A stretch of 64,000 nt of DNA from Burkholderiaceae bacterium (GTDB lineage Bacteria > Pseudomonadota > Gammaproteobacteria > Burkholderiales > Burkholderiaceae_E), in assembly GCA_027493945.1 (NCBI GenBank), contig JAOSJU010000002.1:62001-126000 (forward strand). The letters are read 5' to 3'. Positions 14,379 to 37,870 of this stretch are shown here, piece after piece (the first letter of the stretch is position 1; the number at the start of each line of letters is the position of its first letter). A program made the translations under genes and the position numbers. Below the pieces are notes generated by a model. The model did not search any database, was not told the origin of the DNA, and saw only the letters and a program-made list of their open reading frames with translations.

Positions 14379-16357
<1,979 letters not shown>

Positions 16358-18617: not shown

Positions 18618-19415
18618 ATGGCGGCGCGCCTGCTGTCCGAGCGCCGCGGCGAAGTGCTGCTGCTGCGCATCTCGAATCCGCAGGCGCGCAATGCGCTGCA
18701 CCCCGACGTCTACCGCGAAGGCGCCCAGGCGCTGCGCGCAGCCAGCGAAGACCACGGCGTGCGCGCGATCGTCCTCGCCGGCGAAGGCGAACACTTCTGC
18801 GCCGGCGGCAACCTGCATCGCCTGCGCGAGAACCGCGCGGCCGACCCGTCGGTGCAGGCCGCCTCGATCGACCTGCTCGCCGAGTGGATCGCGTCGATCC
18901 GCGATTGCCCGAAGCCCGTCGTCGCGGCCGTCGAGGGCGCCGCCGCCGGAGCGGGCTTCTCGCTGGTGCTCGCCTGCGACCTCGTGTTCGCGGCCGAGGA
19001 CGCGCGCTTCGTCATGTCGTACGTGAAGGTCGGGCTCACCTGCGACGGCGGGGCCAGCCACTTCCTCGTGACCCGCCTGCCCTACCCGCTCGCCTACGAA
19101 CTGCTGGCCGGAGGCCAGCCGATCGGCGCGCCGCGCTTGCACGCGCTGGGCCCGGTGAACGCGCTGGCGCCGCGCGGCGAAGCGCTGGCGGCGGCGCTGG
19201 CGCGCGCGTCCGAACTCGCCGACGGCCCGGGGTTCGCGCTGGGCCGCATCAAGTCGCTGCTGGCGGCGCACGAGCGTGAGGCGCTGGCGCACCAGCTGGT
19301 GCGCGAGCGCGACAACTTCGTCGCGGCGCTGTTTCACGACGACGGCGGCGAAGGCATCGAGGCCTTCCTCGCCCGGCGCCCGCCGCGCTTCGAACGCGAC
19401 GCGGGCGGCCGCTGA
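18618..19415 (+). CDS. Enoyl-CoA hydratase/isomerase family protein
   Basis: NALHPDVYREGAQALRAA, GEHFCAGGNL, AAVEGAAAGAGFSLVLACDLVFAAEDARFVMSYVKVGLTCDGGASHFL. Confidence 0.92.
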   Translation: MAARLLSERRGEVLLLRISNPQARNALHPDVYREGAQALRAASEDHGVRAIVLAGEGEHFCAGGNLHRLRENRAADPSVQAASIDLLAEWIASIRDCPKPVVAAVEGAAAGAGFSLVLACDLVFAAEDARFVMSYVKVGLTCDGGASHFLVTRLPYPLAYELLAGGQPIGAPRLHALGPVNALAPRGEALAAALARASELADGPGFALGRIKSLLAAHEREALAHQLVRERDNFVAALFHDDGGEGIEAFLARRPPRFERDAGGR

Positions 19416-19423
19416 ATGCACTG
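19304..19423. repeat. Left copy of 120-bp perfect direct repeat bounding the accessory island
   Basis: cgagcgcgacaacttcg...gcgggcggccgctgaatgcactg identical to 37751-37870. Confidence 0.95.
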
Positions 19424-19623
19424 CGGTTGGCATATGTGCTCTGGCCCTGACCCACGCAGCAGTCAGCTTTCCTGCGGAAGGCAACTGGCTGCTTCCTTAT
19501 AACGAATCCCGAACACACCGGGTTGTCTGCTAACCTTTCCCTTTGTGAGAGACGGCCGCCGCCTTCGCAATCGGTGTCTGGTCGATAACGATCGAGGTTT
19601 ACTGGTCTATTCGGGAAGGCGCG

Positions 19624-20682
19624 ATGAACAAGGAACGTTCACGGCAATTCATGCAGAAGGTGGTCGGCGACGTCGGCACCGCAATGGCCGCGGCGCTGGT
19701 CTTCGTGGGCGACCACACGGGGTTGTTCGAGGCGATGGCGGGCGCCGGCCCCTTGGGCGCTGCCGATCTGGTCCGGCGAACTGGAATTCACTCACGATAC
19801 GTTGAGGAGTGGCTCTCGGCCATGGTCTGCGCGGGATACATCGCGCACGACTCTGCTCGCAACCAGTTCGAGTTGCCCGACGAGCACGCTATGTTCCTGA
19901 CCAATCGCTCCTCCGAGTATTACCTCGGCGGGATGTTCGCTGGCGTGCTCGGCGCGGTGACAATCGCGCCGCGATTGGTCGCAGCATTCGAGCGAGGCGA
20001 AGGTATCTCGTTCACCGAGTTCGGCGAGAATCTGCCGCTCGCGTTCGAAAGGATGAACCGCGCGGTCTACGAGAACCGACTCGTCCAGTCCTGGCTGCCG
20101 ACAATGCCCGAGGTCGTTCGGCGGCTTCATGCTGGTGGCCGCGCAATCGACGTCGGCTGTGGTACCGGCGTGGTTCCGGTGATCCTTGCGAAGGCGTTCC
20201 CGATGGCGCATATCGAAGGAATTGATCTCGATGCGCTATCGATCGAAATCGCCCGCCGTCACGCGCACGAAGGAGGTGTCGCCCAGCGCGTTCGATTCAT
20301 CCATGCGTCTGCCGACCTTTTGGCCAGGCAGGGCACTTACGATCTGATCACCACATTCGATGTCGTCCACGATCTGCCCGACCCCCGAGGAGTGCTGGCG
20401 CTGATCCGCAGCGCGCTGAACGAAGGTGGCAGCTACCTGATGGTGGAACCAAAGATGGACGATCGCCTCGAGCGCAATCGCGAGAATCCGTTCGGCCGGA
20501 TGCTCTACTCGATAAGCTGTCTGCACTGCATTCCGCAGTCGCTCGCACAGGGCGGGCCAGGATTAGGCGCGTGCTGGGGACCATCGCAGGCGCGCCGCCT
20601 CGCCGCGGACGTCGGATTCAGTTACTTCGATGCACTCCCGATACACAGCCCCGCGCTAGCGTTCTACGAACTTCGTGCATGA
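19624..20682 (+). CDS. Class I SAM-dependent methyltransferase with N-terminal winged-helix-like domain
   Basis: AIDVGCGTGVVPVILAKAFPMAHIEGIDLD, DLITTFDVVHDLPDPRGVL. Confidence 0.8.
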   Translation: MNKERSRQFMQKVVGDVGTAMAAALVFVGDHTGLFEAMAGAGPLGAADLVRRTGIHSRYVEEWLSAMVCAGYIAHDSARNQFELPDEHAMFLTNRSSEYYLGGMFAGVLGAVTIAPRLVAAFERGEGISFTEFGENLPLAFERMNRAVYENRLVQSWLPTMPEVVRRLHAGGRAIDVGCGTGVVPVILAKAFPMAHIEGIDLDALSIEIARRHAHEGGVAQRVRFIHASADLLARQGTYDLITTFDVVHDLPDPRGVLALIRSALNEGGSYLMVEPKMDDRLERNRENPFGRMLYSISCLHCIPQSLAQGGPGLGACWGPSQARRLAADVGFSYFDALPIHSPALAFYELRA

Positions 20683-20702
20683 ACTGGCGCGGCAGTTGCA
20701 CC

Positions 20703-20790
20703 CGCGAGAAGGACAAACGGGAGGAACGCTGGCTGAAGCGCAGTCGCGCGGGATGTCGAGCGCAAAGCCTTCTCCGGCAATGTGGGGCGC
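20703..20790 (+). pseudogene. Decayed duplicate of the 3' end of the ABC-F gene (parent 16268-16357)
   Basis: cgcgagaaggacaaacgggaggaacgctggctgaagcgcag vs cgcgagaaggacgaactggaggaacgctggctcgagcgcag: 4 mismatches in 41 nt, weaker gapped similarity after. Confidence 0.75.
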
Positions 20791-20797
20791 CCCAAAT

Positions 20798-21442
20798 TCA
20801 TCGGCCCTGCGAGATTGATGCCGCCGCTCGAGGTTTCGGTTCGAGCCCGCCCCGGACAAAGTTCATGTAAATCTCCACGATCCTGTCGGGGATCTCACCA
20901 TTCCTGTCGCACAGAGCCAGGTACTGCTGCCCGTAGTAGTGTTTCGCCGCAATCAAGAAGAGCGCAACGCCATCGAGTTCGACGCCCTTTATTGCCCGAA
21001 TCTCACCATTCTTGCTTGCCTTGAGCAGCGATTTTCGATACCCGTTTATGATCTCCCTTTTGATGCCCTCGTAAGCGTCTGGAAGGAACGCCTCAGCCTC
21101 GTTCTGGAGACGGATGAAGGAGGGATTGCTTCGAATAAACCGGAAATATTGCCGGAACGAGCGCTCCTCGCGGACGAAGAAAGGCGCCTTCACCATCACC
21201 GCCGCGGTGACCTGTCGCCTCAGTTCGTGACTTTGGGCCGTGATGATCGCCTGGAGTAAGGCCTCCCGTGATTCGAAATAAGTGTAGAAGGACCCCGTGG
21301 CCACTTGGGCCTTGTTCGCAATGATCGCGACACTCGCACCCGCAAAGCCGCGGTCCGAGATGGCTTCCGCTGCTGCACGCAGCAGGCGGCTGATGGTGAG
21401 ACTGGCCTTCTCTTCCCGTGTGAGTTTGATATTTTTTGTCAC
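20798..21442 (-). CDS. TetR/AcrR family transcriptional regulator
   Basis: SRLLRAAAEAISDRGFAGASVAIIANKAQVATGSFYTYFESREALLQAII, N-terminal TetR HTH. Confidence 0.88.
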   Translation of the reverse strand: MTKNIKLTREEKASLTISRLLRAAAEAISDRGFAGASVAIIANKAQVATGSFYTYFESREALLQAIITAQSHELRRQVTAAVMVKAPFFVREERSFRQYFRFIRSNPSFIRLQNEAEAFLPDAYEGIKREIINGYRKSLLKASKNGEIRAIKGVELDGVALFLIAAKHYYGQQYLALCDRNGEIPDRIVEIYMNFVRGGLEPKPRAAASISQGR

Positions 21443-21492
21443 ATTGCTGAACCGCGTGTTGGGCCCGTATCGACCCGGGTGCTAATCTGCCC

Positions 21493-22269
21493 TCAGACAG
21501 CCGTCATACCACCGTCGACCGCCGGGATCTGCCCCGTGATGTGCTTGCCGGCATTCGAGCAGAACAGCACCGCGGCGCCCTTCAGGTCCTCGTCATCACC
21601 GAGACGCTTCAATGGCGTGGCTGCCTTGACCCCTCCCTCGAACGCCGCCAGCGTGGCGCGGGCCATCCTTGACGGGAAGAAGCCCGGAGCGAGCGCATTC
21701 ACGGTGATGCCGTACTCGCCCCATTCGCCGGCGAGCGCACGCGTAAAGTTCACCAATCCGCCCTTGGTCGTATTGTAGGCAATCGTATTGTAGGTACCGA
21801 CCGGATTGCCACGCAGGCCGGCAACCGACGCAACGATCAGGATCCGGCCATACTTACGCGGAATCATCGATTTCCTGCCGATCTCCTGCGTCAGCAGGAA
21901 AACGCCGGTCAGGTTCAGGTCAACCAGCTTCTGCCACGCTTCGAGCGGATACTCGGCCGCCGGGGCGCCCCATGCCGCCCCGGCGTTATTCACCAGGACG
22001 TCGCAATGCCCCAGCTTCGCCAGCGCCGCATCGACGAATGCGTGCACCGCTTCGGGCTTGCCCAGGTCGGCCGAAATTGCGTGTGCCTTCACCCCCATGT
22101 TCGCGAGGTGTGCGACGGCGGCGTCGAGTTCGTTCTGCTTGCGCGCGGTGAGCACCACCTCGGCACCCATCTCGCCGAGTGCCTCGGCGATCTGCAGCCC
22201 GAGCCCGCGTGAGCCGCCAGTAACAATCGCCTTGCGGCCGCTAAGATCGAGGGAATGCTTCAACGGCAC
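21493..22269 (-). CDS. SDR family oxidoreductase
   Basis: KAIVTGGSRGLGLQIAEAL, NNAGAAWG, AYNTTKGG, LAPGFFPSRM. Confidence 0.88.
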   Translation of the reverse strand: MPLKHSLDLSGRKAIVTGGSRGLGLQIAEALGEMGAEVVLTARKQNELDAAVAHLANMGVKAHAISADLGKPEAVHAFVDAALAKLGHCDVLVNNAGAAWGAPAAEYPLEAWQKLVDLNLTGVFLLTQEIGRKSMIPRKYGRILIVASVAGLRGNPVGTYNTIAYNTTKGGLVNFTRALAGEWGEYGITVNALAPGFFPSRMARATLAAFEGGVKAATPLKRLGDDEDLKGAAVLFCSNAGKHITGQIPAVDGGMTAV

Positions 22270-22471
22270 GATATTCTCCAGTAGGTGTGGAACGGAATGA
22301 TGCTGCGCGCCACGGCTGCGGCATGCCTGACGCCGTGGTCATGTTCCGGTACGCGATGGCTCGTGCCGCGGCAAGCAGACGTGAGAGTTCCCGCAACGCA
22401 ATGACACCGCCCCGCCGTGTTCGACAGCGGAACGGAACCCCGTGCAGAGGCAATTCAAAGATGGTCGGCGG

Positions 22472-22957
22472 TCAGCCCTTCGCGCTCTCGGAGGGAGATC
22501 CGGCCGGTTCGTCGCCCTTCTTGCGCGGCTCACGCTTGGCGAGATACGCTTTCATCACGACCTGCCCCCAGCCGCCAGCCCGGACGCCACAGTCGCCGCA
22601 GGTAAAGTGGTTGTAGACCATCTCCGTGTCGTGCTGCCCCGCAACGAAGCGATCCTGTGCCATGCTCGCCAACTGTGGAATCGGGAGCATCGCATGCGCG
22701 CACCAGTTCCGCGTGCTGCGCTCGAAGTCCAGTAGCGAGAGTGCCTTGAAGAAGAGCTTGTCGCCGGGCTTCAGGCGGGCGCTGCAGCCATGCGAATGCG
22801 TAACCTCGACGACGAGATCGTTCTCGAGGACCTCCTTCGAGAACATCTTCTTCGCCGCCGCGGCGCGCTTCGGATCGTTCCTGAAGATCTCCAGTTCCTC
22901 GTCGGTGTACTGCAACGTCTTCTGGAACGCCTTCCAGTCGAAATCGTCCTGAGCCAT
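22472..22957 (-). CDS. Small conserved Cys-containing protein of unknown function (possibly TIGR04076-like)
   Basis: Intact 161-aa ORF, 3 nt downstream of the Fe-S gene; VVEVTHSHGCSARLKPGDKLFF...HFTCGDCGVRAGGWGQVVMKAYL. Confidence 0.7.
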   Translation of the reverse strand: MAQDDFDWKAFQKTLQYTDEELEIFRNDPKRAAAAKKMFSKEVLENDLVVEVTHSHGCSARLKPGDKLFFKALSLLDFERSTRNWCAHAMLPIPQLASMAQDRFVAGQHDTEMVYNHFTCGDCGVRAGGWGQVVMKAYLAKREPRKKGDEPAGSPSESAKG

Positions 22958-22960
22958 GAG

Positions 22961-24187
22961 TCATCTCCTTTGGTGGTGGAATGGTCGGTCAGTGCCTGCG
23001 TCGATCCGGGCACCCTCGGTATCCAGAGCCATCGCCTCGAGCAGCAGCCCTGCCACGTCCCGGATGGCAATCTGCTCTGAAAGAGCCTCCGATCGCGATG
23101 CGTCCTCCAGCATGTTGTTGCAATTCGGGCACGCGACCGCCAGGATCCTCGCTCCTGTCGCCTGCGCCTCGCGAACGCGGCTGCGACCCGGGCTGCGTGG
23201 CCCCAGCCCAACAAGACCCGTGAAGAAGTTTCCGCCGCCGCCGCCGCAGCACATGCCATGCTCGCCCGACCGCTCCATCTCGACTCGCTTCACACCCGGG
23301 ATCGCGTCGAGAACCTCACGCGGCGAATCGAACTCTCCGTTGTGACGGCCGAGGAAGCAGGGGTCGTGATAGGTCAGTTGGGACGGCATTGCCTTCTTCG
23401 GAACGAGCTTTCCATCACGCAACAGCTGCGTCAGCAACTGGGTGTAGTGAAGAACTTCGAACTGAGCCCCGAACCGCCGGTAGGTGACCTTCATCGCGTT
23501 GAATGCGTGTGGGCACAGCGTGACGATCCGGGTCACGCCGAGGGAGCGGAATTGCTCGATGTTCTGCCCCGCCAGATATTCGAACAGTTCCCACTCGCCG
23601 ACCTTTTCCACCTCGTTGCCGTCACAGTGTTCGTCTTCCGCCAGGATTCCGAACGACACGCCTGCGGCCTGCAATAGCCTGGCAACATTGCGCGCCAGCC
23701 TGATGCCCCGTTCGTCGTAGGATCCGACGTCTCCGACGTAGTAGAGGTAGTCGTGATGTGCGTACTTCTCGATACCCATGCCCCCCGCCCAGCGACCGCG
23801 CTCCTCCTGGGGAAGTCGATACGGATTTCCGTAGACACTGACGCTCTTGAGGAAGTCCCTGAGCTCTGGCGGCAAGGCGCCTGCCTGAAACCCATCCTGT
23901 TTGAGCGCCTCGATGACCCGCAAGGGCTCGACGCCGACCGTGGGATTGCACTGCACGTCGCAGGCGCCGCAGCTTGTGCAGCTCAAGACCGTTCGCATCG
24001 CGTCAGCAGTGAGCACCGCACGGTCCGCCAACGCCGCCCCGGCCAGCGACACGCGCCCGATCGCGTAGTGCGAATCGAAGCCGAACTGCATCCCCGATGG
24101 GCAGATTGGCTCGCTCGTCTTCCAATCGAGTCGACAGGCTCCGCACTTCAGGCAACTGGCAACATTGCTGCTTACTTCGCTCAACAT
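22961..24187 (-). CDS. (Fe-S)-binding/CCG-domain protein (GlcF/HdrD-like), module A
   Basis: CLKCGACRLDWKTSEPICP, CTSCGACDVQCNP, YHDPCFLGRHNGEFDSPREVL, MCCGGGGGNFF. Confidence 0.85.
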   Translation of the reverse strand: MLSEVSSNVASCLKCGACRLDWKTSEPICPSGMQFGFDSHYAIGRVSLAGAALADRAVLTADAMRTVLSCTSCGACDVQCNPTVGVEPLRVIEALKQDGFQAGALPPELRDFLKSVSVYGNPYRLPQEERGRWAGGMGIEKYAHHDYLYYVGDVGSYDERGIRLARNVARLLQAAGVSFGILAEDEHCDGNEVEKVGEWELFEYLAGQNIEQFRSLGVTRIVTLCPHAFNAMKVTYRRFGAQFEVLHYTQLLTQLLRDGKLVPKKAMPSQLTYHDPCFLGRHNGEFDSPREVLDAIPGVKRVEMERSGEHGMCCGGGGGNFFTGLVGLGPRSPGRSRVREAQATGARILAVACPNCNNMLEDASRSEALSEQIAIRDVAGLLLEAMALDTEGARIDAGTDRPFHHQRR

Positions 24188-24241
24188 GGGATCTTTCTCC
24201 GGCTTGCTACGCGATTCGACCTGGTTGCCGCGGGATGACTT

Positions 24242-25723
24242 CTACTCCAGAGAGTAGGCCCCCCCTTGCAGAATGCCGGAGGGATCGACTACGTGCTTGA
24301 GCGCGCTGAGGATCTCGGCATAGGCCGGATTTATCCGCTTGAGCAAGCTCCGGTTGGGAATGGTATGCACGGCACCGAACTCCGAAGTCGCACGGCTGTA
24401 TGCTTCGCGGATACAGTTGCCGGCCCGGTCGACGCTGCTCTGATCCTGCCGATTGAACAGGAACTCCTGCTCGACATAGACCGTGGAGCAGCGATCGTAG
24501 GGGATGACGATGACCTCGGGGTCCAGCGGGCTGCCATCCACCGGGTCGAGCAATTCGTACTTCTTCGCGAGGTCCGCGCCCAAACGCCGGATTCCGGCAG
24601 CATGCCTGGGCGGAACGCAGGCGATGAGGGGCATGAAGCCGGTGTACGGTGTGAACATGCGCAGGACCTTCTGGCTTCCGCCCTCGGACAACTCACGAGC
24701 AATCGACGTCAATTCGGCGCCCAGCACGAGCTCCCTCCCTCCTTCGCTCGTGAGAACATCGTTGACTAACTCCCGATTAAGTTCGAACTGGCGTGACATG
24801 CCGCCGAGCCCGGTCGACATCAGAAAGGCTGGCAACTGCGCCTCGACGCGCCCTCTCTCGACGGGATCGAGAATCGCCTTCGGACTCAGGAAAACATGCT
24901 TCCAGGTGCTCGCGCTGAAGAAGAATGCATATCGTGTGATGTCAAGCCTCTCGAGATGCTTGAGGGCACCCATCGCCTGATCGAAGTCGTCGAATCCGTA
25001 GAGAGCCACATCCTCATGCTGCATCCTGGGCCGAAGCATCGTGACCATTTTGGTAACGACGCCGAAGTTCCCCAGGCTGCCTCTGAACAGGCCGGTCAGG
25101 TCCGGCCCATAGGCATACCGGAAGTAGCGGTTCAAGTCGCCGCGCTCCCCTGCCCATGAGCCGGTGCGCAGCAGCTCCCCATTGGGCATAACCACCTCGA
25201 GCGTCGCCGCGCGATCGGCCATGCGCTTGCTCGAGTAAGCGGTGACGTTCGTCAGCAGGAAGTTCCCGACCGGGCCGCCCCGGTAGGGGCCGAGGATCGG
25301 CATCGCGTCCAGCCCCACGCGATTGGCCTCCTTGCGCAGCTTGCCCCAGCTCACCCCGGGCTCGACGGTCGCCGTCATGGTGTCCTCGTCGATCTCCCAG
25401 ATCCGCGTCATCCGTTTCAGGTCCAGAACGATTCCGCCCCGGTACGGAATCGCCGACGCCGCGATGTTGACCCCGGAACTGCGCGGATACACGGGGATGC
25501 CACATGAGTTTGCCAGCCTCATCAGCGCCTGAACCTGGTCGGTCTCCTCGGGCATGACCACGCATTCTGGTAGCGGCACTTCGCGGCGCATCAGGAGCGA
25601 GTACGAGTCGCTCATGTAGGTCAGCAGATCTTCCGGGCGCCGCGAGGCGTTCGCGACCCCGACGATACCCTGCACCTTGGCAAACGCATCGCCATCCAAT
25701 CGAGGCACTTCTTCGTGAGTCAT
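24242..25723 (-). CDS. FAD-binding oxidoreductase of the VAO/PCMH-like type, module A
   Basis: GIPVYPRSSGVNIAASAIPYRGGIVLDLKRMTRIWEIDEDTMTATVEPGVSWGKL...PVGNFLLTNVTAYSS; start MTHEEVP at 25723 preferred over the longer ORF. Confidence 0.85.
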   Translation of the reverse strand: MTHEEVPRLDGDAFAKVQGIVGVANASRRPEDLLTYMSDSYSLLMRREVPLPECVVMPEETDQVQALMRLANSCGIPVYPRSSGVNIAASAIPYRGGIVLDLKRMTRIWEIDEDTMTATVEPGVSWGKLRKEANRVGLDAMPILGPYRGGPVGNFLLTNVTAYSSKRMADRAATLEVVMPNGELLRTGSWAGERGDLNRYFRYAYGPDLTGLFRGSLGNFGVVTKMVTMLRPRMQHEDVALYGFDDFDQAMGALKHLERLDITRYAFFFSASTWKHVFLSPKAILDPVERGRVEAQLPAFLMSTGLGGMSRQFELNRELVNDVLTSEGGRELVLGAELTSIARELSEGGSQKVLRMFTPYTGFMPLIACVPPRHAAGIRRLGADLAKKYELLDPVDGSPLDPEVIVIPYDRCSTVYVEQEFLFNRQDQSSVDRAGNCIREAYSRATSEFGAVHTIPNRSLLKRINPAYAEILSALKHVVDPSGILQGGAYSLE

Positions 25724-26051
25724 CACGGGGTCCTTGAGAAAGTCTGCATCTTCCGGCCCGGCACTTCGCGGTCGGCCCCGGCGTTTCTCCATCCCATCGC
25801 TGCCGCCTCGAACGGCGGGCGAGCCCGTTCGCGACTTCCCCCGGGCAGATCCTGGCTCGATCGACACATGTCACGCCTGCTCGGGGCAACAACTATATGG
25901 CCGGCCGAATCATGCTGTCAATAAACCCGAATATGCATTCAATTTTTGTATCATGTGTCATCGTGAACGATTCCTGCTTCAATGTCATCCTGCAAAGATG
26001 ACGGTTGATACATCCTACTTCTTCTCTCTGCAAAATCCAGATTCTCAGGCA

Positions 26052-26079
26052 TTGACATCTTGAAGACGAGTCTTATAGA
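26052..26079 (+). promoter_or_regulatory. Candidate sigma70-like promoter (TTGACA-N16-TATAGA) upstream of the DUF169 gene
   Basis: ttgaca at 26052-26057, tataga at 26074-26079, overlapped by agtct-tat-agact. Confidence 0.45.
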
Positions 26080-26190
26080 CTTTCCGAAACCTGATTCGTT
26101 CTTCGGCTTTTGCCCGGTACGCAATTTCAGGATTTCCCGACGCTGCGAACGAGGCTTGCCCGAATACGCGGCATTCCCGAGGAGGTGGAG

Positions 26191-26958
26191 ATGGACGGCC
26201 AGGACTGGAAGACGATCGTCGCCGAGCTCGACCAGCTACTGAAGCTGAGGTCGGTGCCGTTCGGGATGAAGCTGTTCGAGCGTCGAGATGAGATGGAGGC
26301 GATCCCGAAGATCCGTCGCCCGAAGGCGGTATACACGCTGGACCAGCTTGTTGCGCAGACGGCGCGTCTGGGTTGGACGGTGGGCGTCACCTCGGACGAT
26401 CTCGTTGGCCCCCAGTGCCGGGCGGTGGTCGGCTTGGGCAATGCCAAGGACCCCGAGTGGAAATCGGGCCAGCACATGACTGGCGTCTGGTACGCCACGC
26501 AGGCCGATGCTTCGGCCCACCAGCAGGCAATGCACTGTGTACCGGATGGACGGTACGCGGCTCTGGCAACCTCCCCAATCGCCTCTGGCCGCATTCCCGA
26601 GCCCGACATCGTCCTCTTCTACGCGACACCCGGTGCGATGATGTACTTCATCAACGGCCTTCAGTGGTCGGGCTATCGCCGCTTCGACTGGAGCGTCGTA
26701 GGCGAGTCCGCCTGTGCGGACTCCTGGGGCCGAGCCCTGGTGACCAGGCAACCGAGTCTGTCGATTCCGTGTTTCGCCGAACGTCGATATGGCGGTGTGA
26801 CCGACGAGGAAATGCTCATGGCGCTTCCACCCGAATTTCTGGAGGCGGCAATCAATGGCATGAGGGCGCTCTCCCGGAACGGGCTGCGCTATCCGTTCCC
26901 GGCGTACGGAATCCAGATGGACGTTCGTGCGGGAATGAGCGCGAGCTATTCGAGCTGA
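26191..26958 (+). CDS. DUF169 family protein
   Basis: MDGQDWKTIVAELDQLLKLRSVPFGMKLFER...PKAVYTLDQLVAQTARLGWTVGV; RBS ggaggtggag before ATG 26191. Confidence 0.7.
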   Translation: MDGQDWKTIVAELDQLLKLRSVPFGMKLFERRDEMEAIPKIRRPKAVYTLDQLVAQTARLGWTVGVTSDDLVGPQCRAVVGLGNAKDPEWKSGQHMTGVWYATQADASAHQQAMHCVPDGRYAALATSPIASGRIPEPDIVLFYATPGAMMYFINGLQWSGYRRFDWSVVGESACADSWGRALVTRQPSLSIPCFAERRYGGVTDEEMLMALPPEFLEAAINGMRALSRNGLRYPFPAYGIQMDVRAGMSASYSS

Positions 26959-27106
26959 CCTGCATCCGAGGCGCCACGATCAGGACGGACGCCCCATTCG
27001 GCGAACGACGTCATCGCGGACGGCGTATGGCATTGCAGACGGGCGCGACTCGAGCATGCAGCCAGACTCCCCAGCACGGAGGGGAATGTATGAATTCAGT
27101 TGGCAT

Positions 27107-28545
27107 ATGAGCAACGTGGGCGAATCGCATCCACTGCTCGGACCCCTCAGCGAGATCGTGGGAGTGCACCACGTAGCCGATGAGGATTTCGTACGCAGAT
27201 CGTACACGCGCGGGCCGTTCCAGGTACTCGGCGGCGGCAGCCGGGGTAGAGTCCCCGGCATTGTCGTCAGGCCGGCAGACAGCGATCAGGTCGCGCGGAT
27301 CATGCGCCTGGCGAACGAGTCGCTCACCCCGGTCGTGCCCAAAGGCGGAGGCGGCAGCGCTGCGGCCTTCCCGCCGCATCACGTCGGCCACGACGGAAAC
27401 ATCCTGCTCGACACCACCCGGCTCAATCGTATCGACATCGACCGCGAGGCGATGACGGTCACAGCGCAGTCAGGGGCCATCCTCTCAAACGTGCAGGCCG
27501 AAGCCCGGAAGCGCGGGTTGCATTTCTTCGCGGTGGACGTCCCGGTTCACATGGACACGATCGGGGGCGTCTGCAGTGGCTTTCTCGGGGGCGGCGAGCC
27601 GTCGGACGTCGCCACCGCCGGGCCGATGAACGCGTACTTGCTGGGTCTCACGGTGGTGTTGCCCACCGGCCTGGTGGTCCGGACCGGCGGGGGCCGGGCA
27701 CCAACGTGCGGCAGCCGAAGACACTGCACCGCGAGGCGGGCAGTCCCGACATGACCGGAATGTTCGTGGGCGATGGAGGGGCCTTTGGCATCAAGACCGA
27801 GGCGGCCTACTCGCTGCATCCGGCGCCTACCGCTTACTTTCAGGCCGCCTACGAGATCGGCTCCTCGGAACGGATGTGGGCGGCGTATACGCGGCTGGTC
27901 GAAACTGCGCCGTTTCCCTATACACGACTCCTGGCGTTTCGCGAGCCAGCCGGTACATGGCATTTCTTCGTTGTGATCAGGGGACATAGCGACGAGGAAG
28001 TCGCACTGAAGCGCTCGATCGCCGACGGCATCGTCGCCGAACACGGCGGGGGCGTCGCCAAAGATGGCGCGAACATCACCCGGATCGCGAAAATGTTCTC
28101 TGCACGGCGGCTGGGCCAGCAAGTGCTTCAGAGCGGCTCGGCGATGACCTATTTCGGTGAAGCGCTGATCCCACGGCCGAGCACCCTGGCATATCTGGCG
28201 ACACTCAACAAGCTGATCGACATCGAACTCGAGGAACTTCCCATCGTGAAGCGGGTCGAGTTTACGGTCCCCTTTCTCCGGTCCACGACGATCACGGGCG
28301 TGCTGCTCTACTTCGGCAACGGGACAACGCGCGACACGGTCAGCGAAGTCCTCTACAAGAAGACCTTCCACCAGTTGCACCGCATCATGTCACAGGAATT
28401 CGGTGGATTCACCGAGGCGTGCCAGGGTGAGCCGGCGGCGCTGAACGCCTCGATGTGGTCTCCCGAGTACAGGGAGTTCATGAAGAACATCAAGATGGCG
28501 CTGGATCCGAACGATATTCTGATGCCGTCGCTCTGGAAGATCTGA
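27107..28545 (+). CDS. FAD-binding oxidoreductase (GlcD-like), module B, frameshifted near 27690; start uncertain (27056-27107)
   Basis: PGIVVRPADSDQVARIMRLANESLTPVVPKGGGGSAAAFPP, GNILLDTTRLNRIDIDREAMTVTAQSGA; continues in another frame TNVRQPKTLHREAGSPDMTGMFVGDGGAFGIKTEAAYSL. Confidence 0.85.
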
Positions 28546-28548
28546 TTC

Positions 28549-29799
28549 ATGCTGATCAATCTTCTTGCGCTTCGCGAAAACGTCTACAAATGCGTCGGGT
28601 GTGGAGTCTGTCGCGGCATCTGGGAACGCGACGAAGAGGCGATGTGCCCGATTTTCGCCACCCGGATCGGGTTCGAGAGCGGCATGCCACGCGGCATGGT
28701 CACCGTGGCCCAGGATCTTCTGGAGGGTCACGTCAACCTCTCGCGTGCGATGGCCAATGCGTTCTACCGCTGCACGGATTGCGGGGCATGCGCAACGAAC
28801 TGCAATGCACTTTCGCGAACCGGCGAGCATATTATCGACGTACCGCGGGTTGCACGTGCGCTCCGTGCCGATCTGGTCGAGAGTTCGCTGGCGCCCCCTG
28901 CAGCCCGCGATGTCTTCAAGGCGCTCATCGCCACCGGTAACGCGTTCGGGCAGCCACCGGAACGGCGCGGCGACTGGGCTCGAAAATCGGGAGTCGAGCA
29001 GTTCGGACCTGGGCATGAGTTCCTGCTGTATGTCGGCGACGTCGGATCGTACGACGAAAGAGGTCAGGCGATGGCGCGCTCGGTCGCGCGACTGCTGCGC
29101 GCCGCAGGCATCTCCTTCGGCATCCTCGGCGAGCGCGAAGTCAGCGACGGCAACGACGTGAAGGCAATGGGTGAACTGGCATTGTTCGAGCATCTGGCCA
29201 AGACCAATATCGACGCCTTTCTCGACGCCGGCGTGCGCAAGATAATCTGCCTGGATCCTCACAGCTACAACTGCTTCACCAACGACTATCCTTCGCTTGG
29301 CGGAAAGTTCGATGTCTGGCACTACACGCAGCTCACGAAGGATCTCGCCCTCAGGGTCGGCCGGCGCGATTCGGTCGATCCTGCGCGGGATGCGACAGGC
29401 GTAGCCCCACGCTCGCAAACCTCGCGGGTCGCCTATCACGACCCGTGCTACCTCGGCCGGAAGAACGGCGAGTTCGAGGCGCCGAGGCGAAGCCTGTCGG
29501 CTGCAGGCGCGGACCTGGTCGAGATGCCGAGAAGTCGCCGGAATTCGTTCTGTTGCGGCGGAGGATCTGGAAACTTCTACACCGACTTGCTCGGCGGCGG
29601 CGTGAACAGTGCAGCCCGCGTCAGGGTTCGCGAGGCCGCCGCAACAGGCGCGGAGATCATTGCTGTGGCCTGCCCGATGTGCTCGAAGATGCTCGACGAT
29701 GCCGTCAAGAGCGAAAACCTCGACGGGCGCCTGAAGGTGACGGATATCGCACAGTTCATCCTGGCTGAATCGGAACATGAGCCGCGTCATGCCCATTGA
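28549..29799 (+). CDS. (Fe-S)-binding/CCG-domain protein (GlcF/HdrD-like), module B
   Basis: CVGCGVCRGIWERDEEAMCP, CTDCGACATNCNA, YHDPCYLGRKNGEFEAPRRSL, FCCGGGSGNFY; paralogous to 22961-24187. Confidence 0.87.
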   Translation: MLINLLALRENVYKCVGCGVCRGIWERDEEAMCPIFATRIGFESGMPRGMVTVAQDLLEGHVNLSRAMANAFYRCTDCGACATNCNALSRTGEHIIDVPRVARALRADLVESSLAPPAARDVFKALIATGNAFGQPPERRGDWARKSGVEQFGPGHEFLLYVGDVGSYDERGQAMARSVARLLRAAGISFGILGEREVSDGNDVKAMGELALFEHLAKTNIDAFLDAGVRKIICLDPHSYNCFTNDYPSLGGKFDVWHYTQLTKDLALRVGRRDSVDPARDATGVAPRSQTSRVAYHDPCYLGRKNGEFEAPRRSLSAAGADLVEMPRSRRNSFCCGGGSGNFYTDLLGGGVNSAARVRVREAAATGAEIIAVACPMCSKMLDDAVKSENLDGRLKVTDIAQFILAESEHEPRHAH

Positions 29800-29862
29800 G
29801 CCGGGGTTCGATACTGGTTATCGCGACAACGGCGTCCAGCCCCTCACCAGTTGTGCCCGGTC

Positions 29863-30741
29863 ATGACGAAGATTGTCGACATCGCAATCAACGGCCTCGT
29901 TTTTGGCGGCGTGTACGCGATTCTCAGCGTCGGATTCGCATTGATCTTCGGCGTGACGCGGATTCTCAACATGGCGCATACGGCGCTATACATGCTCGCG
30001 GCCTTCCTGATCCTCGCCGGAATTTCCGCCTTCCAGTTACCGCTCCTGCTGTCCATCATCGGAGCGATCATCGTCACCACCGCGTTCGGCATGCTCGTCT
30101 TCAAGCTCCTGTACGACAGAGTGAAGGAACACCAGAACGCGGTGATGATCATCTCGGTTGCCGTGGCCCTCATTCTCCAGGAAGTGCTGCTCCTGACGGT
30201 CGGCGGCCACTATCGAGGAATTCCGCCCTTCAGCAAGGGATTCGTCACCCTGTTCGGCTCCGGGGTGACACACCAGCATCTGATCGCGATCCTGATGTGC
30301 GGGGTGGTGCTGCTGAGCCTCTGGCTGCTGCTGACGCGCACATCGTTGGGGCAAGCCATTCGTGCCGTCGCCCAGGACCGGGAAGTGGCGACGCTGATGG
30401 GCATCGACATCAGCAGGATCCTGCTCGTCGTTATGGGGATCTCGACGGCTCTCGCAGCGCTGGCCGCCGCGGTGGTCGCCCCGATCCAGGTTCTCAGCCC
30501 CTTGATGTGGGTTCAGCCACTCACCATTGTGCTCGCGGCGGTGGTCATCGGTGGGCTCGGAAGTATCGGCGGAAGTGTCATCGGCGCCTTCGTCCTGGGT
30601 TACACCGAGGCGATCGTGGTGAATCTGTTGCCAAGCGGCGGCTACCTGGCCGCACCGGCCGCCATGCTGATTCTGATCGTCGTACTGCTCATCCGGCCCG
30701 AAGGGTTGCGTGGTGTCGTGTTCGAAGAGGAGCGCATTTGA
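29863..30741 (+). CDS. livH: Branched-chain amino acid-type ABC transporter permease LivH
   Basis: IAINGLVFGGVYAILSVGFALIFGVTRILNMAHTALYML, LLTRTSLGQAIRAVAQDREVATLMGID. Confidence 0.9.
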   Translation: MTKIVDIAINGLVFGGVYAILSVGFALIFGVTRILNMAHTALYMLAAFLILAGISAFQLPLLLSIIGAIIVTTAFGMLVFKLLYDRVKEHQNAVMIISVAVALILQEVLLLTVGGHYRGIPPFSKGFVTLFGSGVTHQHLIAILMCGVVLLSLWLLLTRTSLGQAIRAVAQDREVATLMGIDISRILLVVMGISTALAALAAAVVAPIQVLSPLMWVQPLTIVLAAVVIGGLGSIGGSVIGAFVLGYTEAIVVNLLPSGGYLAAPAAMLILIVVLLIRPEGLRGVVFEEERI

Positions 30742-31837
30742 TGAAGGGTAACCTGGCGCTCCTCGTCTCCTGGATCCGCGGCGAGGTCATCGACATACCA
30801 GGCCGCGTCATCGCGGTACTGTTCCTTGGGGTACTCCTGCTCGTGCCGTTCGTGGCGCCGAATCCGTACTACCTCCGGATCATCGCACTCGCGGCGATCT
30901 TCGCGATCTACGCCGCCAGTTGGGACGTGCTCTCCGGCGTGACGGGCCAACTCAACCTGGGCCACGGGTTGTTCTTCGGCGTGGCCGCCTACTTGGCCGC
31001 GCTCATGAACCTTCATGCCGACATCGGGCCCTGGCTCGGCATTCCGCTCGGCGCACTCGGTGCGATGGTCATCGGGGTCACTGTCGGATTGCCGGCGCTC
31101 AGGTTGCGCGGCATCTACCGGCGCTCGTGACGCTGGCTTTCCCTGTCATCGCAAGCGCGCTCGTGTTCGTGTTCCCGAACTTCACCGGCGGCGAGGTCGG
31201 ATTGTCCGGTGTCCGCTCGCTGGCCGAATCCCGGGTGACCGCATACTATGTCGTGATTGCAGTGTTCGTCGCTTCGGTTCTCGTCATGTGGAAGCTCGCC
31301 GACCCGAAGAGCAAGATCATCCGGATCGGCGTCATCCTGCACGCGATACGTCAGGATGAAATCACCGCCCGGGCATCCGGGATCAACAGCGTCCGGTACA
31401 AACTCCTCGCGTTCGCTGTCAGTGGTTTCTTCGCCGGAATCGCCGGCGGACTGTACGTGCACTTCATCCGGGTTGCGGGCCCCGGCATGTTCGATCTCTT
31501 CTTTTCGTTCCAGGTCGTGCTCTGGAGCATCTTCGGCGGAATCGGGACGATCTATGGCGCCGTCGCCGGTGTCTTCATCCTGTATCCGACGATCGAATTC
31601 CTGAGTCTGGCGGAGCAGGCGGAACCCTACAAGATCATTGCATTCGGCAGTGTGCTGATTCTGACCCTGCTGTTCATGCCGGAGGGCCTCGCTGTCTGGG
31701 TCATCGACAGAATCGAAACGAAGTGCCTGCGCTGCAAGGTCGTCAACTTCTCGGCCCGCAAGCACTGCAGGGCGTGCGGGGCCCCTCTGGTTCGTGAACT
31801 GGACCCGGCCGATGCCGATCCCGCCAGGCCTGCGTGA
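30741..31837 (+). CDS. livM: Branched-chain amino acid-type ABC transporter permease LivM, frameshifted near 31120, with C-terminal CxxC...CxxC tail
   Basis: SWDVLSGVTGQLNLGHGLFFGVAAYLAAL...LPALRLRGIY then ALVTLAFPVIAS in another frame; expected tacctggcg reads taccggcg. Confidence 0.9.
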
Positions 31838-31894
31838 CCAAGGGCAATGCAGGTGAGCGCACGAACAGGAACTTGCGAGCAATTAGGAGACGGT

Positions 31895-33602
31895 ATGGGA
31901 GACAACACGAACGATCCAGACATTGCTAGCGAGCGTTCGCGCGCCTCGGTCGTCGAGGGGCTGGGGATTTCCTTTCCCGTTACGACGATCGGCGATCTCT
32001 TCGACACCGTGGCGGGAAAGTGGGCGAATCGAACCGCGATCGTCTTCTATGGTCGCAAGTTCTCGTTCCGGGAGTTACGCGAGAAAGTCGACAAGTTGGC
32101 TGGCGCCCTCATGGGACTGGGCGTTCGCAAAGGCGACAGAATCGCAATGATGTTGCTGAACTCGCCCGAATACGCGATCACGTTCTTTGCGGCAGCGAAG
32201 ATCGGTGCGGTGGTGACACCGATCAGCCCGGTGTACGTTTCCTCGGAGGTCAAGCACCAACTCGAGGACAGTGGTGCCGGGGTTGTCGTATGCATGGACA
32301 TGCTCTACGAGACGATCGAGAAGTCGGGGGTTTTGGTCGACGAGGTGATCCTCGTCGATGTCACCGAATCCCTGCCGCTCACACGCAAGCTCTTCGGCAA
32401 GAGCATCCTGCGGAACGTCTACACGGACAAGGCGAAAAATCAGTCCGGCCACCACAACAACCGACGCATTCACCGGATCGGTGAACTCATCTCGAGGTCG
32501 GATGCCACGCCGCCACGGGTCGACATCGATCCTGAACGTGACCTCATCGCCTTGCCGTACACAGGCGGAACGACCGGCGCTCCCAAGGGTGTCCAGATCA
32601 CGCATCACAACGTCGTGGCGAACCTTCTTCAGTTGAATGCGTCGCTGCCGTGTCTCGAGGAGGGCAAGGAAACCAGCGTCTCGTACATGCCCTTCTACCA
32701 TGCCGCGGGGCAGAGCCTGAGCCTGATCCTGTGCACGCTGAACGGCTACACACAGGTTGTTCTCACCACCCCTGACCTGGACGAAATCGTGCAAGCGATC
32801 ATCCGATACGGTGCCACGTTCTTCGTCGGCGCGCCGGCAATCTACGAATCCCTGAAGGACTTCGAGAAATCGGGACGGATCGACTGGCGACGTCTCAAGG
32901 TCCTCATCTGCGGCGCCGATGCGCTTCACGAGCACACGGCCAACGAATGGAAGACTCGCTGGGGCGTGACCCTGACCGAGGGATACGGGATGACCGAAAC
33001 GACCGGCGGCACGCACATGAATCCACTTGGGGCGCAGCGTGTCGGCTCCGTCGGGAAGCCGATGGCGGGCGTGTCGGCCGTCCTTCTGGATCCAGACGTC
33101 GATGCATACGCGGCACCCGGCGAGAAAGGCGAGATCGGGGTACGGGGGCCCGCAGGTCGGACTCGGGTACTGGAAGCGTCCGGAAGCCACCCGGGAATGC
33201 CAGGCGGTGATCGAGGGCATCACCTGGTGGCGAACAGGCGATATCGCCCGGGTCGACGACGACGGATACTTCTACTTCTACGAGAGAAAGCGCGACCTGA
33301 TCAAGTACAAGGGCCTGCGGGTGTTTGCGCGCGAGGTCGAAGAGGTATTGATGGCGCACCCGATGATCAAGAGTGTCGGGGTGGTCGGCGTGCCTGACCA
33401 GAAGGTCGGCGAGAACGTCAAGGCGGTGATCGTCCTCGAGACCGACGCGCACGGACTCCTGACCGAGGGGCAGATCCTCGAGTTCTGCGAGGACAAGCTG
33501 GCTCACTACAAAATTCCGAGGATCATCGAGTTCGTCGGGGAAATCCCCAGAACGGACATCGGCAAGGTCTCTCGTCGAGAGATCCGTGAGGAGACCCAGT
33601 GA
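31895..33602 (+). CDS. AMP-dependent acyl-CoA synthetase/ligase, frameshifted near 33150
   Basis: LPYTGGTTGAPKGVQITHHN, LTEGYGMTETTGG, GDIARVDDDGYFYFYERKRDLIKYKGLRV; one extra C in cgggggcccgcag. Confidence 0.9.
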
Positions 33603-34378
33603 TGCACGAACCCCTCTTGGTCGTCCGGAACTTGACCAAGGCATACGGCGGGATCCTTCCGGCCAACAACCTGAACTTCGAGATCCATCACGACGAGATC
33701 GTCGGGATCATCGGGCCGAACGGCGCCGGGAAGTCGACGCTGATGCGGCTCATTGCCGGTGTCCTCAGGCCGACCTCCGGACAGATCCTCTTCAAAGGCA
33801 CCGACATTACGGGGCAGGAGATCTCCAAGACGGTCAACATGGGGCTCGCCTCCACGTTCCAGATCGTGCGACCGTTCCGGCACCTTCCGGTGATCGCCAA
33901 CGTCATGGTCGGATGCCTGTCACCTCGATCGAAGCGGAAGGGCGAATGGGTGAAGACGGTCGAGCAGCGCGCGGCCAATGCCCTCGAATTCTGCGGCATC
34001 GCCGATCTTGCGAAGGAATCAGCCTCGGTGCTGTCGCACGGCGACCTCAAGCGACTCGAGCTCGCACGGGCGATCGCGACCGAACCCGATCTGCTTCTGC
34101 TCGACGAACCCCTGGGCGGCCTGAATCCGACCGAAGCAAGACTGGTCGCGCGCTCGCTCAAGCGACTTCACAAGGGAGGCCGGTTCGGTCGTCTCCATAG
34201 CGAAGGACCGGCGATGATGATCGTCGAGCACAAGCTTTCCGAACTGATGTCGATCGTCGACAGGGTGATCGTCATCAACCTCGGCAAGATCATCGCGATC
34301 GGGTCGCCGGAAGAGATCGTCAAGAACGATGCCGTAATCGAAGCCTATCTCGGAAGGGACAACAGCCTTGCAGCTTAA
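33602..34378 (+). CDS. livG: ABC transporter ATP-binding protein LivG
   Basis: IIGPNGAGKSTLMRLIAGVLRPTSG, LSHGDLKRLELARAIATEPDLLLLDEPLGGLNPTE. Confidence 0.9.
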   Translation: MHEPLLVVRNLTKAYGGILPANNLNFEIHHDEIVGIIGPNGAGKSTLMRLIAGVLRPTSGQILFKGTDITGQEISKTVNMGLASTFQIVRPFRHLPVIANVMVGCLSPRSKRKGEWVKTVEQRAANALEFCGIADLAKESASVLSHGDLKRLELARAIATEPDLLLLDEPLGGLNPTEARLVARSLKRLHKGGRFGRLHSEGPAMMIVEHKLSELMSIVDRVIVINLGKIIAIGSPEEIVKNDAVIEAYLGRDNSLAA

Positions 34379-35117
34379 AGTTCAGGGCCTGTCGGTTCGT
34401 TACGACCAGGCGACGGTCCTCAACAACGCCGCGCTCGAGGTCGGCAAGGGCGAGGTCGTCGGCATTATCGGTCCGAACGGTGCCGGGAAGACAACCCTGC
34501 TCCGGGCGATCGTCGGTCTGGTTGGCTGGGAGCGTGAGTCGCTCAAGGGAACTGTCGGCGGGAAAATCACTCTGCGCGGGAGCGTGCTCCTGAATGGGGA
34601 GGAGATCTCGCATCTACCTCCGAACGAGATCGTGCGTCGCGGGCTCGTGCTCTGCCCCGAGCGCGGGCGTCCCTTCAGGGAGATGACCGTCCGGGAGAAC
34701 CTCGAGGTCGGGGCCTACCTGGCTAGGAGCAAGGCGGTGGTCGAGGAGCGGCTCGCGCGCGTCTTCGAGCTCTTTCCGATCCTCGAGGAACGCCAGAACC
34801 AGATCTCCGGGATCCTCTCAGGTGGCGAACGGACGATGCTGGCAATCAGCAGATCATTGATGTCGGATGTGCAGCTGCTCGTGATCGACGAGCCGTCGGT
34901 AGGGCTTGCGCCGCTCGTCAAGGATCTTCTTTGCGAGCGGATCAAGGATATCCATCGAATGGGGATCACGGTCCCGGTCACCGAGCAGGACATCGGTTTT
35001 GCGTTCAAGCTGATCCAGCGAAGCTACGTGCTTTCGCAGGGCCAGATGATCGCGTCGGGTACTCCGGAAGCGTTACTGTCCGACGACATGATTCGGAAGA
35101 CGTATCTGGGGTTGTAA
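34368..35117 (+). CDS. livF: ABC transporter ATP-binding protein LivF
   Basis: IIGPNGAGKTTLLRAIVGL, LSGGERTMLAISRSLMSDVQLLVIDEPSVGLAPLVKD; TTG start. Confidence 0.9.
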   Translation: MQLKVQGLSVRYDQATVLNNAALEVGKGEVVGIIGPNGAGKTTLLRAIVGLVGWERESLKGTVGGKITLRGSVLLNGEEISHLPPNEIVRRGLVLCPERGRPFREMTVRENLEVGAYLARSKAVVEERLARVFELFPILEERQNQISGILSGGERTMLAISRSLMSDVQLLVIDEPSVGLAPLVKDLLCERIKDIHRMGITVPVTEQDIGFAFKLIQRSYVLSQGQMIASGTPEALLSDDMIRKTYLGL

Positions 35118-35149
35118 GTCAGTCAACGACACAGAGAGGAGACTCCGGT

Positions 35150-36460
35150 ATGAGCTGGAAGATCAGTCGACGCCGTCTGATGGGATACGCGGCCGCAACG
35201 GCAGCTGGCATCGGTGGGGCACATGGCCCGGCACGCGCGGCCGGCAAGCCCATCAGGATCGGGATCGTGGGGCCCATGAAATACGTGCAGGGCGAGCACT
35301 CCTGGTACGGCGCGGAGATCGCCGCCGAAGAGATCAATGCGGGCGGCGGCATCAACGTCAATGGCACGAAGCACCCGATCGAGCTCGTTCGGGTGGATAC
35401 GAACGAGATCCTCAGCACCGTGGACGCGACGTCGGCGGTCGAGCGTGCCATCACGATCTCCAAGGTGAACTTCCTCGTCGGGGGGGCAAGTTCCTCGGCA
35501 ATCATGGCGATGCAGGAGGTCGCCATGGACTACAAGACCATCTTTCTGCTCGGAGGATCCGGCTCTCATCCCGAGATCACCGCGCGAGTGGGCCGGAACT
35601 ACGCACGATACAAGTATTTCTTCCGCCCATCGCCGATATCGGCCACTTATATCGTCGACATGGTCGTGGAGAGCGCGTTGGAGCTCGGCCGCATCATCAG
35701 GCGGGACCTCGGCATCGCGCGGCCGAAAGTGGCCTTGCTTTTCGAAGAGGCGAAATGGCTCGATTCCCAGATCCCCGCCTACCAGAAGATATTCCCCGAA
35801 AAGGGGATGGATGTGGTCGGTCTCTGGAGAATGTCGATCAAGGACCTTGACGTGTCCGCCCAGCTCGGTGCGATCCGCGCTGCAGGCGCGCAGATCCTGA
35901 TCCCGATGACGTCCGGACCCGTGGCGATTCCGGTCTACAGGCAGATCGGCGAGCTCCAGATCCCGGTCGCCGTAACAGGCGTCAACGTCGAGGCGGAGGG
36001 CGCGAAATTCTGGGAAGCAACCGGAGGATCGGCAGCGTACCTCGGCGTGACCCTGACATCGTCGTCGGCGCCGTTCTCGAAGCGCACCGTACCTTTCGTC
36101 GAAAAATTCAGGAAGAAGCACGGCGTAAATCCGATCCTGACCGCCGCGGGCAGCTACAACGCGATCCTGCCGCTTGCCGAAGCCATCGAGCGTGCAAAGA
36201 CGATCGAGGCGGACGCCGTCGTGCCGGAACTCGAGAAGACGGACTTCGACGGCACCTCAGGCCGACTCGTGTTTGACAAGAACCACGACGTGCGATACGG
36301 GTCGGGCTACTCTGGCGCATCGGCAGGACAATGGTTGCCGCCGAACGGCGAGTCGGTCATATGGTGGGCGACGAAACGATCGGACGGTAGCGCTGTGCCG
36401 GGCTTGGTCGAATACAAGTTGCCGCCTTGGATGGTCACCCATTGGAAGAAGGCCGGCTAG
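35150..36460 (+). CDS. livK: ABC transporter substrate-binding protein (LivK-like) with Tat-type signal
   Basis: MSWKISRRRLMGYAAATAAGIGGAHGPARAA; IRIGIVGPMKYVQGEHSWYGAEIAAEEINAGGGINVNG. Confidence 0.88.
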   Translation: MSWKISRRRLMGYAAATAAGIGGAHGPARAAGKPIRIGIVGPMKYVQGEHSWYGAEIAAEEINAGGGINVNGTKHPIELVRVDTNEILSTVDATSAVERAITISKVNFLVGGASSSAIMAMQEVAMDYKTIFLLGGSGSHPEITARVGRNYARYKYFFRPSPISATYIVDMVVESALELGRIIRRDLGIARPKVALLFEEAKWLDSQIPAYQKIFPEKGMDVVGLWRMSIKDLDVSAQLGAIRAAGAQILIPMTSGPVAIPVYRQIGELQIPVAVTGVNVEAEGAKFWEATGGSAAYLGVTLTSSSAPFSKRTVPFVEKFRKKHGVNPILTAAGSYNAILPLAEAIERAKTIEADAVVPELEKTDFDGTSGRLVFDKNHDVRYGSGYSGASAGQWLPPNGESVIWWATKRSDGSAVPGLVEYKLPPWMVTHWKKAG

Positions 36461-36466
36461 CCGTGC

Positions 36467-36496
36467 TCGATCACGGAGCGTGAACCCCGTGATCGA
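36467..36496. other. Inverted repeat tcgatcacgg-N10-ccgtgatcga after livK
   Basis: Perfect 10-bp arms read directly; no T-tract follows. Confidence 0.7.
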
Positions 36497-36610
36497 ACAT
36501 CCGGAGGACGATGTGGCGTAGTGCACGACACCTGTATTCCATTAGAAGAATATGCACCTGCGCATGGCTCGGTGCTTGATCTCGACAATTGAGGCTCATC
36601 CGGAGAGGAA

Positions 36611-37495: not shown

Positions 37496-37606
37496 TGGCC
37501 ATGCCGGGATGGGTAATGGAGCGACATCTCCAGGCACAATGAAGTACTGAAACGCAGCGAATTGGGTGCGCCGCTCAACAAAGGGCACAATGAATCGTCT
37601 TGAACG

Positions 37607-37862
37607 GGGCCTCACCGGCGACGGCGGCGCCAGCCACTTCCTCGCGACCCGCCTGCCCTACCCGCTCGCCTACGAATTGCTGGCCAGCGGCCAGCCGATC
37701 GGCGCGCCGCGCCTGCACGCGCTGGGGCTGGTGAACGCACTGGCGGCACACGAGCGCGACAACTTCGTCGCGGCGCTGTTTCACGACGACGGCGGCGAAG
37801 GCATCGAGGCCTTCCTCGCCCGGCGCCCGCCGCGCTTCGAACGCGACGCGGGCGGCCGCTGA
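37607..37862 (+). pseudogene. 5'-truncated, internally deleted remnant of the enoyl-CoA hydratase gene (parent 19034-19415)
   Basis: LTGDGGASHFLATRLPYPLAYELLASGQPIGAPRLHALGLVNALAAHERDNFVAALFHDDGGEGIEAFLARRPPRFERDAGGR. Confidence 0.92.
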
Positions 37863-37870
37863 ATGCACTG
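37751..37870. repeat. Right copy of 120-bp perfect direct repeat bounding the accessory island
   Basis: Identical to 19304-19423. Confidence 0.95.

Follow-up and report, generated by a model that had tools for sequence, protein, structure and literature searches.

What two pairs of flavoprotein and iron-sulfur (Fe-S) genes are doing in a member of the Burkholderiaceae, and where they came from, are the questions raised by a 64,000-nucleotide stretch of contig JAOSJU010000002.1 (positions 62,001 to 126,000; hereafter the window, in which all coordinates of the locus are given). One pair, designated FADA and FeSA, lies on the minus strand and the other, FADB and FeSB, on the plus strand, and both are found within an 18.3-kb horizontally acquired island (19425–37750, no strand assigned) that also encodes an importer and an acyl-CoA ligase. 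The island is recently acquired foreign DNA, located where an enoyl-CoA hydratase gene ends, and the two flavoprotein/Fe-S pairs are a conserved unit, not a chance pairing, present in three further Desulfobacterota lineages. As to function, we tentatively favor, at slightly less than an even chance, an acquired two-step flavin dehydrogenase system acting on an imported, CoA-activated acid.

A first-pass annotation, made from the sequence alone, had described two modules around a DUF169 gene, and most of its gene calls stood: the open reading frames (ORFs) of a small cysteine-rich protein (22472–22957, minus), FeSA (22961–24187, minus), FADA (24242–25723, minus), the DUF169 protein (26191–26958, plus) and FeSB (28549–29799, plus) are intact and show the expected Pfam domains, except for the small protein, which, unlike the other module ORFs, matched no known family. 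The flavoprotein drawn as a single ORF at 27107–28545 had to be abandoned in that form, as the interval holds 10 in-frame stops; FADB (27056–28545, plus) is frameshifted and consists of two overlapping ORFs, 27056–27754 and 27706–28545, split by an indel. The Fe-S proteins are indeed paralogous (44–46% identity, with YVGDVGSYDERG in both; 408–416 aa), and the flavoproteins are, as had been supposed, of different types, FADA and FADB being only 26% identical and falling into two separate clades of the tree. An inverted repeat was sought in the divergent promoter region between the modules, and none was found.

A scan with patterns from both Fe-S proteins, covering the genomes of 84,980 species, returned 16 loci, mainly from Deltaproteobacteria/Syntrophus, with Fe-S identities mostly at 43–49% and a flavin adenine dinucleotide (FAD) protein adjoining the Fe-S gene in most of the complete loci. 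A profile search of 155 Syntrophia-class genomes placed the Fe-S subfamily in about 45 of them (E <= 1e-148, other proteins with the CCG cysteine motif scoring E >= 1e-117), mostly as single “class I” pairs, frequently accompanied by a third Fe-S protein of 340 aa. These class-I pairs (e.g., those of G909 and L006) resemble the ones in the window in their Fe-S proteins, which are 42–49% identical and have the same degenerate first CCG site, but their FAD partners are merely 24–28% identical to FADA over the full length, and there is usually one pair. Several class-I loci also have genes for an APH-type kinase, an acyl-CoA dehydrogenase and the electron-transfer flavoprotein (ETF) subunits EtfAB, which adjoin the pair in L006 and L105.

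Orthologues of FADA, FeSA, FADB and FeSB within one locus were found in the window and in genomes G934, G935, G936, G988 and G1255, so that the conserved association of both modules, which the first-pass annotation had set as its own test, was borne out. The four genes span about 9 kb in G934, G936, G988 and G1255, whereas the G935 contig is short; a FADB search of 395 genomes in the phylum of G934 yielded two further lineages, G988 and G1255, both with FADA-FeSA as well. The orthologous clades have support values of 100/100 for FADA, 100/99 for FeSA, 93/94 for FADB and 92/89 for FeSB, and the pairing of FADA/FeSA with FADB/FeSB is therefore older than the split of the window, G934, G988 and G1255 lineages.

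The gene order in G934 (FADA 46% and FADB 56% identical to those of the window) is TetR, LivH, LivM, CoA ligase, LivG, LivF, LivK (three copies), FADA, FeSA, FADB, FeSB, a short-chain dehydrogenase (SDR), a CrtI-like protein, a reductase, the small cysteine-rich protein and another CrtI-like protein. The interleaved LivH-LivM-CoA ligase-LivG-LivF-LivK block is common to G934 and the island, the ligase gene being placed between LivM and LivG in both. Of the wider association that had been claimed, the importer-ligase block recurs in G934 and the small cysteine-rich protein in G934 and G988, the DUF169 gene in neither. The G988 locus contains the small protein, an acyl-CoA dehydrogenase, a DUF362 protein and a gene of the HpaB/4-hydroxybutyryl-CoA-dehydratase family, and the G1255 locus acyl-CoA enzymes, an Old Yellow Enzyme-type reductase and tripartite ATP-independent periplasmic (TRAP) transporters. 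Acyl-CoA enzymes, namely acyl-CoA dehydrogenase, HpaB/4-hydroxybutyryl-CoA-dehydratase family members, enoyl-CoA hydratase and CoA ligase, are neighbors of such pairs elsewhere, too, and HpaB/4-hydroxybutyryl-CoA-dehydratase-like genes near FAD-FeS pairs were seen at L125 3–1313, L128 10356–11789 (by eye only) and L009 4369–5859. The two carotenoid-isomerase/CrtI-like flavoproteins and the [2Fe-2S] reductase follow both modules in G934 (L100 13168–18108); an analogy with limonene dehydrogenase drawn from them was rejected, as the island has none of these genes and the CrtI homologues of the genome are distant (~29–35%).

Which chemistry might the flavoproteins perform? FADA, a FAD_binding_4 protein, had been called similar to vanillyl-alcohol oxidase (VAO) and p-cresol methylhydroxylase (PCMH), and rightly so: the FADA A5 profile aligns over its full length with PCMH (1wve residues 18–510, E 1.6e-44), 1dii being homologous as well. 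FADA is like the PCMH/VAO family over the full length, but its partner is a CCG Fe-S protein. Of the PCMH residues that we take to bind phenolate, Tyr95 corresponds to a gap in the alignment, Tyr473 to His453 and Arg474 to Thr454; Tyr384, presumably the covalent FAD link, is replaced by Phe357 in the window (likewise Phe in G988, Tyr in G934 and G1255), and His436 and Asp440 by Cys412 and Glu420. Cys412, Glu420, His453 and Thr454 are invariant across five FADA sequences. The oxidation of 4-alkylphenols by FADA was rejected as a reading, since the phenol-binding residues are replaced. Structure models of FADA and the small cysteine-rich protein have low confidence (predicted local distance difference test of ~56) and were read for fold class only, not for mechanism. 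The small protein has three invariant cysteines (C58, C86 and C120) and homologues in G934 (P0008) and G988 (L125:4238–4675, 59% identical); it was not found in the G1255 DNA fetched.

The Fe-S subunits, FeSB repeating the cluster pattern of FeSA, each have two [4Fe-4S] motifs, a degenerate first CCG site and an intact C-terminal one. The latter, Cx~35CCGx~38CxxC (PF02754), is kept as C277, C313–314, C353 and C356 in FeSA and as C300, C335–336, C375 and C378 in FeSB, whereas the N-terminal ligands are lost (GD for GC/CC, xDG for CCG and xPHA/xPHS for CPHC), a loss common to FeSA, FeSB and their Desulfobacterota relatives. Among PDB entries, the Fe-S profile matches by sequence most closely 9ojn (E 5e-84), a 1042-residue iron-sulfur-binding reductase that we take to be probably an EtfD-like protein. 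Its cysteine-rich architecture and C-terminal CCG motif, also seen in the HdrD/TfrB family, are shared by FeSA and FeSB, which differ from 9ojn in being far shorter, in having lost the first CCG ligands and in having a VAO-fold flavoprotein partner. Taken with the EtfAB and acyl-CoA dehydrogenase genes adjoining the class-I pairs in L006 and L105, this kinship would suit electron-transfer hubs that supply quinone with electrons drawn from ETF or from acyl-CoA dehydrogenases instead of oxidizing a substrate; we consider that unlikely, as neither the island nor the loci fetched from G934, G988 and G1255 showed an EtfAB gene, and FADA is a full-length homologue of a substrate-oxidizing flavoenzyme with active-site positions that are altered yet invariant.

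The first-pass annotation had leaned on GlcD/GlcF-type hydroxyacid oxidation, with FADB described as GlcD-like, a label that fits only loosely. Because neither flavoprotein has the metal motif of D-2-hydroxyacid dehydrogenases, plain GlcD/GlcF chemistry is unlikely, and it was dropped as the leading reading: no FADA or FADB and none of the class-I proteins sampled contains GHxGxGNxH, while the pattern did pick up a homologue used as the control, L036, which carries AHAGDGNLH. Two 2-hydroxyacid dehydrogenases would account for the arrangement of FAD and CCG genes in pairs, which is that of GlcD/GlcF, and for a weak likeness to glcD models and lactate dehydrogenase folds, but every glcD/glcF score is far under its cut-off (glcD: 86.7 bits for FADA, 53.1 and 20.1 for the FADB pieces, against a curated 567.9), and with the metal motif missing such a pair of enzymes appears very unlikely. 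The system resembles GlcDEF in combining flavoproteins of the FAD_binding_4 type with Fe-S subunits of the CCG type, and differs from it, besides the motif and the scores, in that two full FAD/FeS pairs are present.

The literature search found no published assigned function for FADA/FeSA plus FADB/FeSB (the first-pass annotation had named the existence of one as what would overturn it); the nearest system is a cluster of unknown mechanism described in 2026. This “Magic” cluster of Candidatus Anaerobenzenivorax ORM2a (Desulfobacterota), located on a genomic island and proposed for anaerobic benzene activation, comprises FAD-FeS-FAD genes, an AMP-forming acyl-CoA synthetase, MaoC dehydratases and type III CoA transferases (PMC13101534). 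Two of the four motifs in its Hdr-like Fe-S protein, #25, lack conserved cysteines, and FAD-FeS-FAD trimers were modelled both for proteins #24–26 and for GlcDEF (PMC13101534). By description, it is the closest published parallel found, its proteins #24–26 being WAC08368–WAC08370. The likeness extends over the Desulfobacterota connection, the FAD oxidoreductases, an Hdr-like Fe-S protein with lost cysteines, the AMP-forming acyl-CoA synthetase and the genomic island. The differences are that “Magic” has one Fe-S protein per two flavoproteins, whereas there are two complete FAD/FeS pairs here, that the island lacks the FAD-FeS-FAD order and has no MaoC or type III CoA transferase genes that could be found, and that its importer and small cysteine-rich protein are not described for “Magic”.

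It is against this background that FADA, FeSA, FADB and FeSB may be thought of as one complex, in which one flavoprotein would be catalytic and the other would relay electrons, as GlcD/GlcE do with GlcF, possibly for one difficult C-H activation of the kind proposed for “Magic”. The four genes stand together in every lineage found, trimers of the FAD-FeS-FAD kind have been modelled, and the cysteine loss of #25 resembles that of the first CCG site in FeSA/FeSB; on the other hand, a separate Fe-S partner is encoded directly downstream of each flavoprotein, as opposed to the 2:1 FAD:FeS ratio of “Magic”, the two modules of the window are transcribed away from each other, and the resemblance to “Magic” is drawn from its description. 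We would place such a complex clearly below the two-step system in likelihood, although it is a serious contender.

The DUF169 protein (PF02596, 127.9 bits against a gathering score of 27), once put at the center of the system, was rejected as a core part, since it is missing from the G934, G988 and G1255 two-module loci; the literature search gave no function for it. DUF169 genes do lie 4–6 kb from a class-I FAD-FeS pair in L006, L061 and L102, and Syntrophia-class DUF169 genes adjoin, or are at most ~2 kb from, a gene similar to SDR1 of the island in L063, L065, L066 and L068, as well as in L060 and L067, the last of which additionally has a weak homologue of the island methyltransferase.

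The limits of the island follow from its guanine-plus-cytosine (GC) profile, its repeats and an empty site in five relatives. Between about 19.4 and 37.5 kb the GC fraction is mostly 0.60–0.63 (range 0.57–0.66), as compared with ~0.70–0.75 in the flanks; a 120-bp direct repeat is present as a left copy (19304–19423, plus), which is the 3′ end of the enoyl-CoA hydratase gene, and a 100% identical right copy (37751–37870, plus); and five genomes of the same genus have uninterrupted flanks with a single copy of the 120-bp segment. The acquisition is a point that goes beyond the first-pass annotation. Immediately inside the right repeat lies a second fragment of the enoyl-CoA hydratase gene (37608–37745, 92% identical), which suggests that the arriving DNA brought along a relative’s copy of the target gene. 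A 79-bp stretch at 20702–20778, 81% identical to 16267–16345, which falls within an ORF for an ABC ATPase to the left of the island, is possibly a scar of the donor genome. Directly after the island there is a pair of APH-type kinase and acyl-CoA dehydrogenase genes (37876–40268), and several class-I loci have similar neighbors.

FADA was not found in 73 other genomes of the family (E <= 1e-40) or in 398 other sampled genomes of the phylum (E <= 1e-50), nor the small cysteine-rich protein in 368 other genomes of the class, and the G934 FADA homologue had no match in 388 other sampled genomes of the order; all these absence counts depend on the genome samples and E thresholds and are not proof of absence. 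A tblastn search of plasmids returned only distant FAD/CCG relatives and nothing for the small protein, scans of viral contigs gave no FADA and one Fe-S fragment, and no Rfam family was found in the island. That fragment (L020 5601–6521), on an IMG/VR contig with phage-like genes, adjoins a response regulator and is either a chimera or genuine cargo.

Has the island decayed into a non-functional foreign remnant? The frameshifts that affect FADB, LivM and the CoA ligase and the truncated hydratase fragment at the right end would be expected of one, but the FADB indel, a single base at ~27690, falls within a GGGGG-CC-GGG run (the G934 homologue reads QTGGGPATN there), the flanks also show single-base indels relative to the close relative G060, and the other annotated ORFs of the island are intact. 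As a glutathione S-transferase gene outside the island (~16810) is frameshifted likewise, sequencing error is the likely cause, and decay appears to us the least probable of the readings considered.

The remaining genes of the island are a Rv2258c-like S-adenosylmethionine-dependent methyltransferase (19624–20682, plus), whose part in the system is uncertain; a TetR-family regulator (20798–21442, minus; PF00440), a TetR gene likewise heading the G934 cluster; SDR1 (21493–22269, minus), placed in the PRK08213 subfamily of NCBIfam above its cut-off, the G934 cluster also having an SDR; LivH (29851–30741, plus; G934 homologue at E 4e-111) and LivM (30738–31837, plus; frameshift near 31115) permeases; an AMP-forming acyl-CoA ligase (31847–33602, plus; frameshift near 33100–33140, G934 homologue at E 3e-153); the ATPases LivG (33599–34378, plus; E 2e-124) and LivF (34368–35117, plus; E 1e-110), again with G934 homologues; a LivK-type substrate-binding protein (35144–36460, plus); and SDR2 (36611–37495, plus; PF13561).

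From these components, the two-step system would work as follows. The dedicated Liv-type importer would take up a carboxylic acid, which the acyl-CoA ligase, judging from its family, would turn into a CoA thioester; this ester would then be dehydrogenated at two positions, by FADA, whose VAO/PCMH fold would imply hydride abstraction by FAD, and by FADB. Each flavin would hand its electrons to its own Fe-S partner, through two [4Fe-4S] clusters and one C-terminal CCG cluster, and from there they would pass to quinone, ETF or ferredoxin, with no need for oxygen; the small cysteine-rich protein may be an accessory. While gene content, acquisition, conservation of the pairs and the motifs lost and retained are observed, we infer the order of the steps, the CoA ester as the substrate, the electron acceptor and the existence of two reactions instead of one. 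Two sequential oxidations, as the first-pass annotation had proposed, are possible, and a single four-subunit enzyme is compatible with, and would leave, the same gene pattern. Further points weigh against the two-step system: the structure models are of low confidence, the assembly is 88.8% complete, and it shows frameshifts in three genes of the island, FADB and the CoA ligase among them, so that decay is possible. The importer type differs, too: it is Liv in the window and G934 but TRAP in G1255, and the lineages may accordingly differ in substrate.

A bolder version, which we regard as doubtful, would see in FADA-FeSA-FADB-FeSB an oxygen-independent flavin/Fe-S enzyme of a new class, one that functionalizes a C-H bond, either unactivated or allylic, in the imported acid or its CoA ester, that is akin in design to the “Magic” complex with its putative role in benzene activation, and that was transferred horizontally from anaerobic Desulfobacterota-like donors to a Burkholderiales-like bacterium. 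FAD and Hdr-like Fe-S oxidoreductases with no assigned function are common in syntrophic Desulfobacterota, and a complex built along similar lines has been put forward in print as the candidate for activating benzene anaerobically. In a proteobacterial genus, a compact, self-contained island that brings along an importer, a ligase and a regulator would be a practical way into both the substrate and the chemistry, and the altered active site of FADA, with its invariant Cys412, Glu420 and His453, offers directly testable residues. Taken together, the locus suggests that the bacterium of the window and uncultured anaerobes share a route for breaking down an organic acid.

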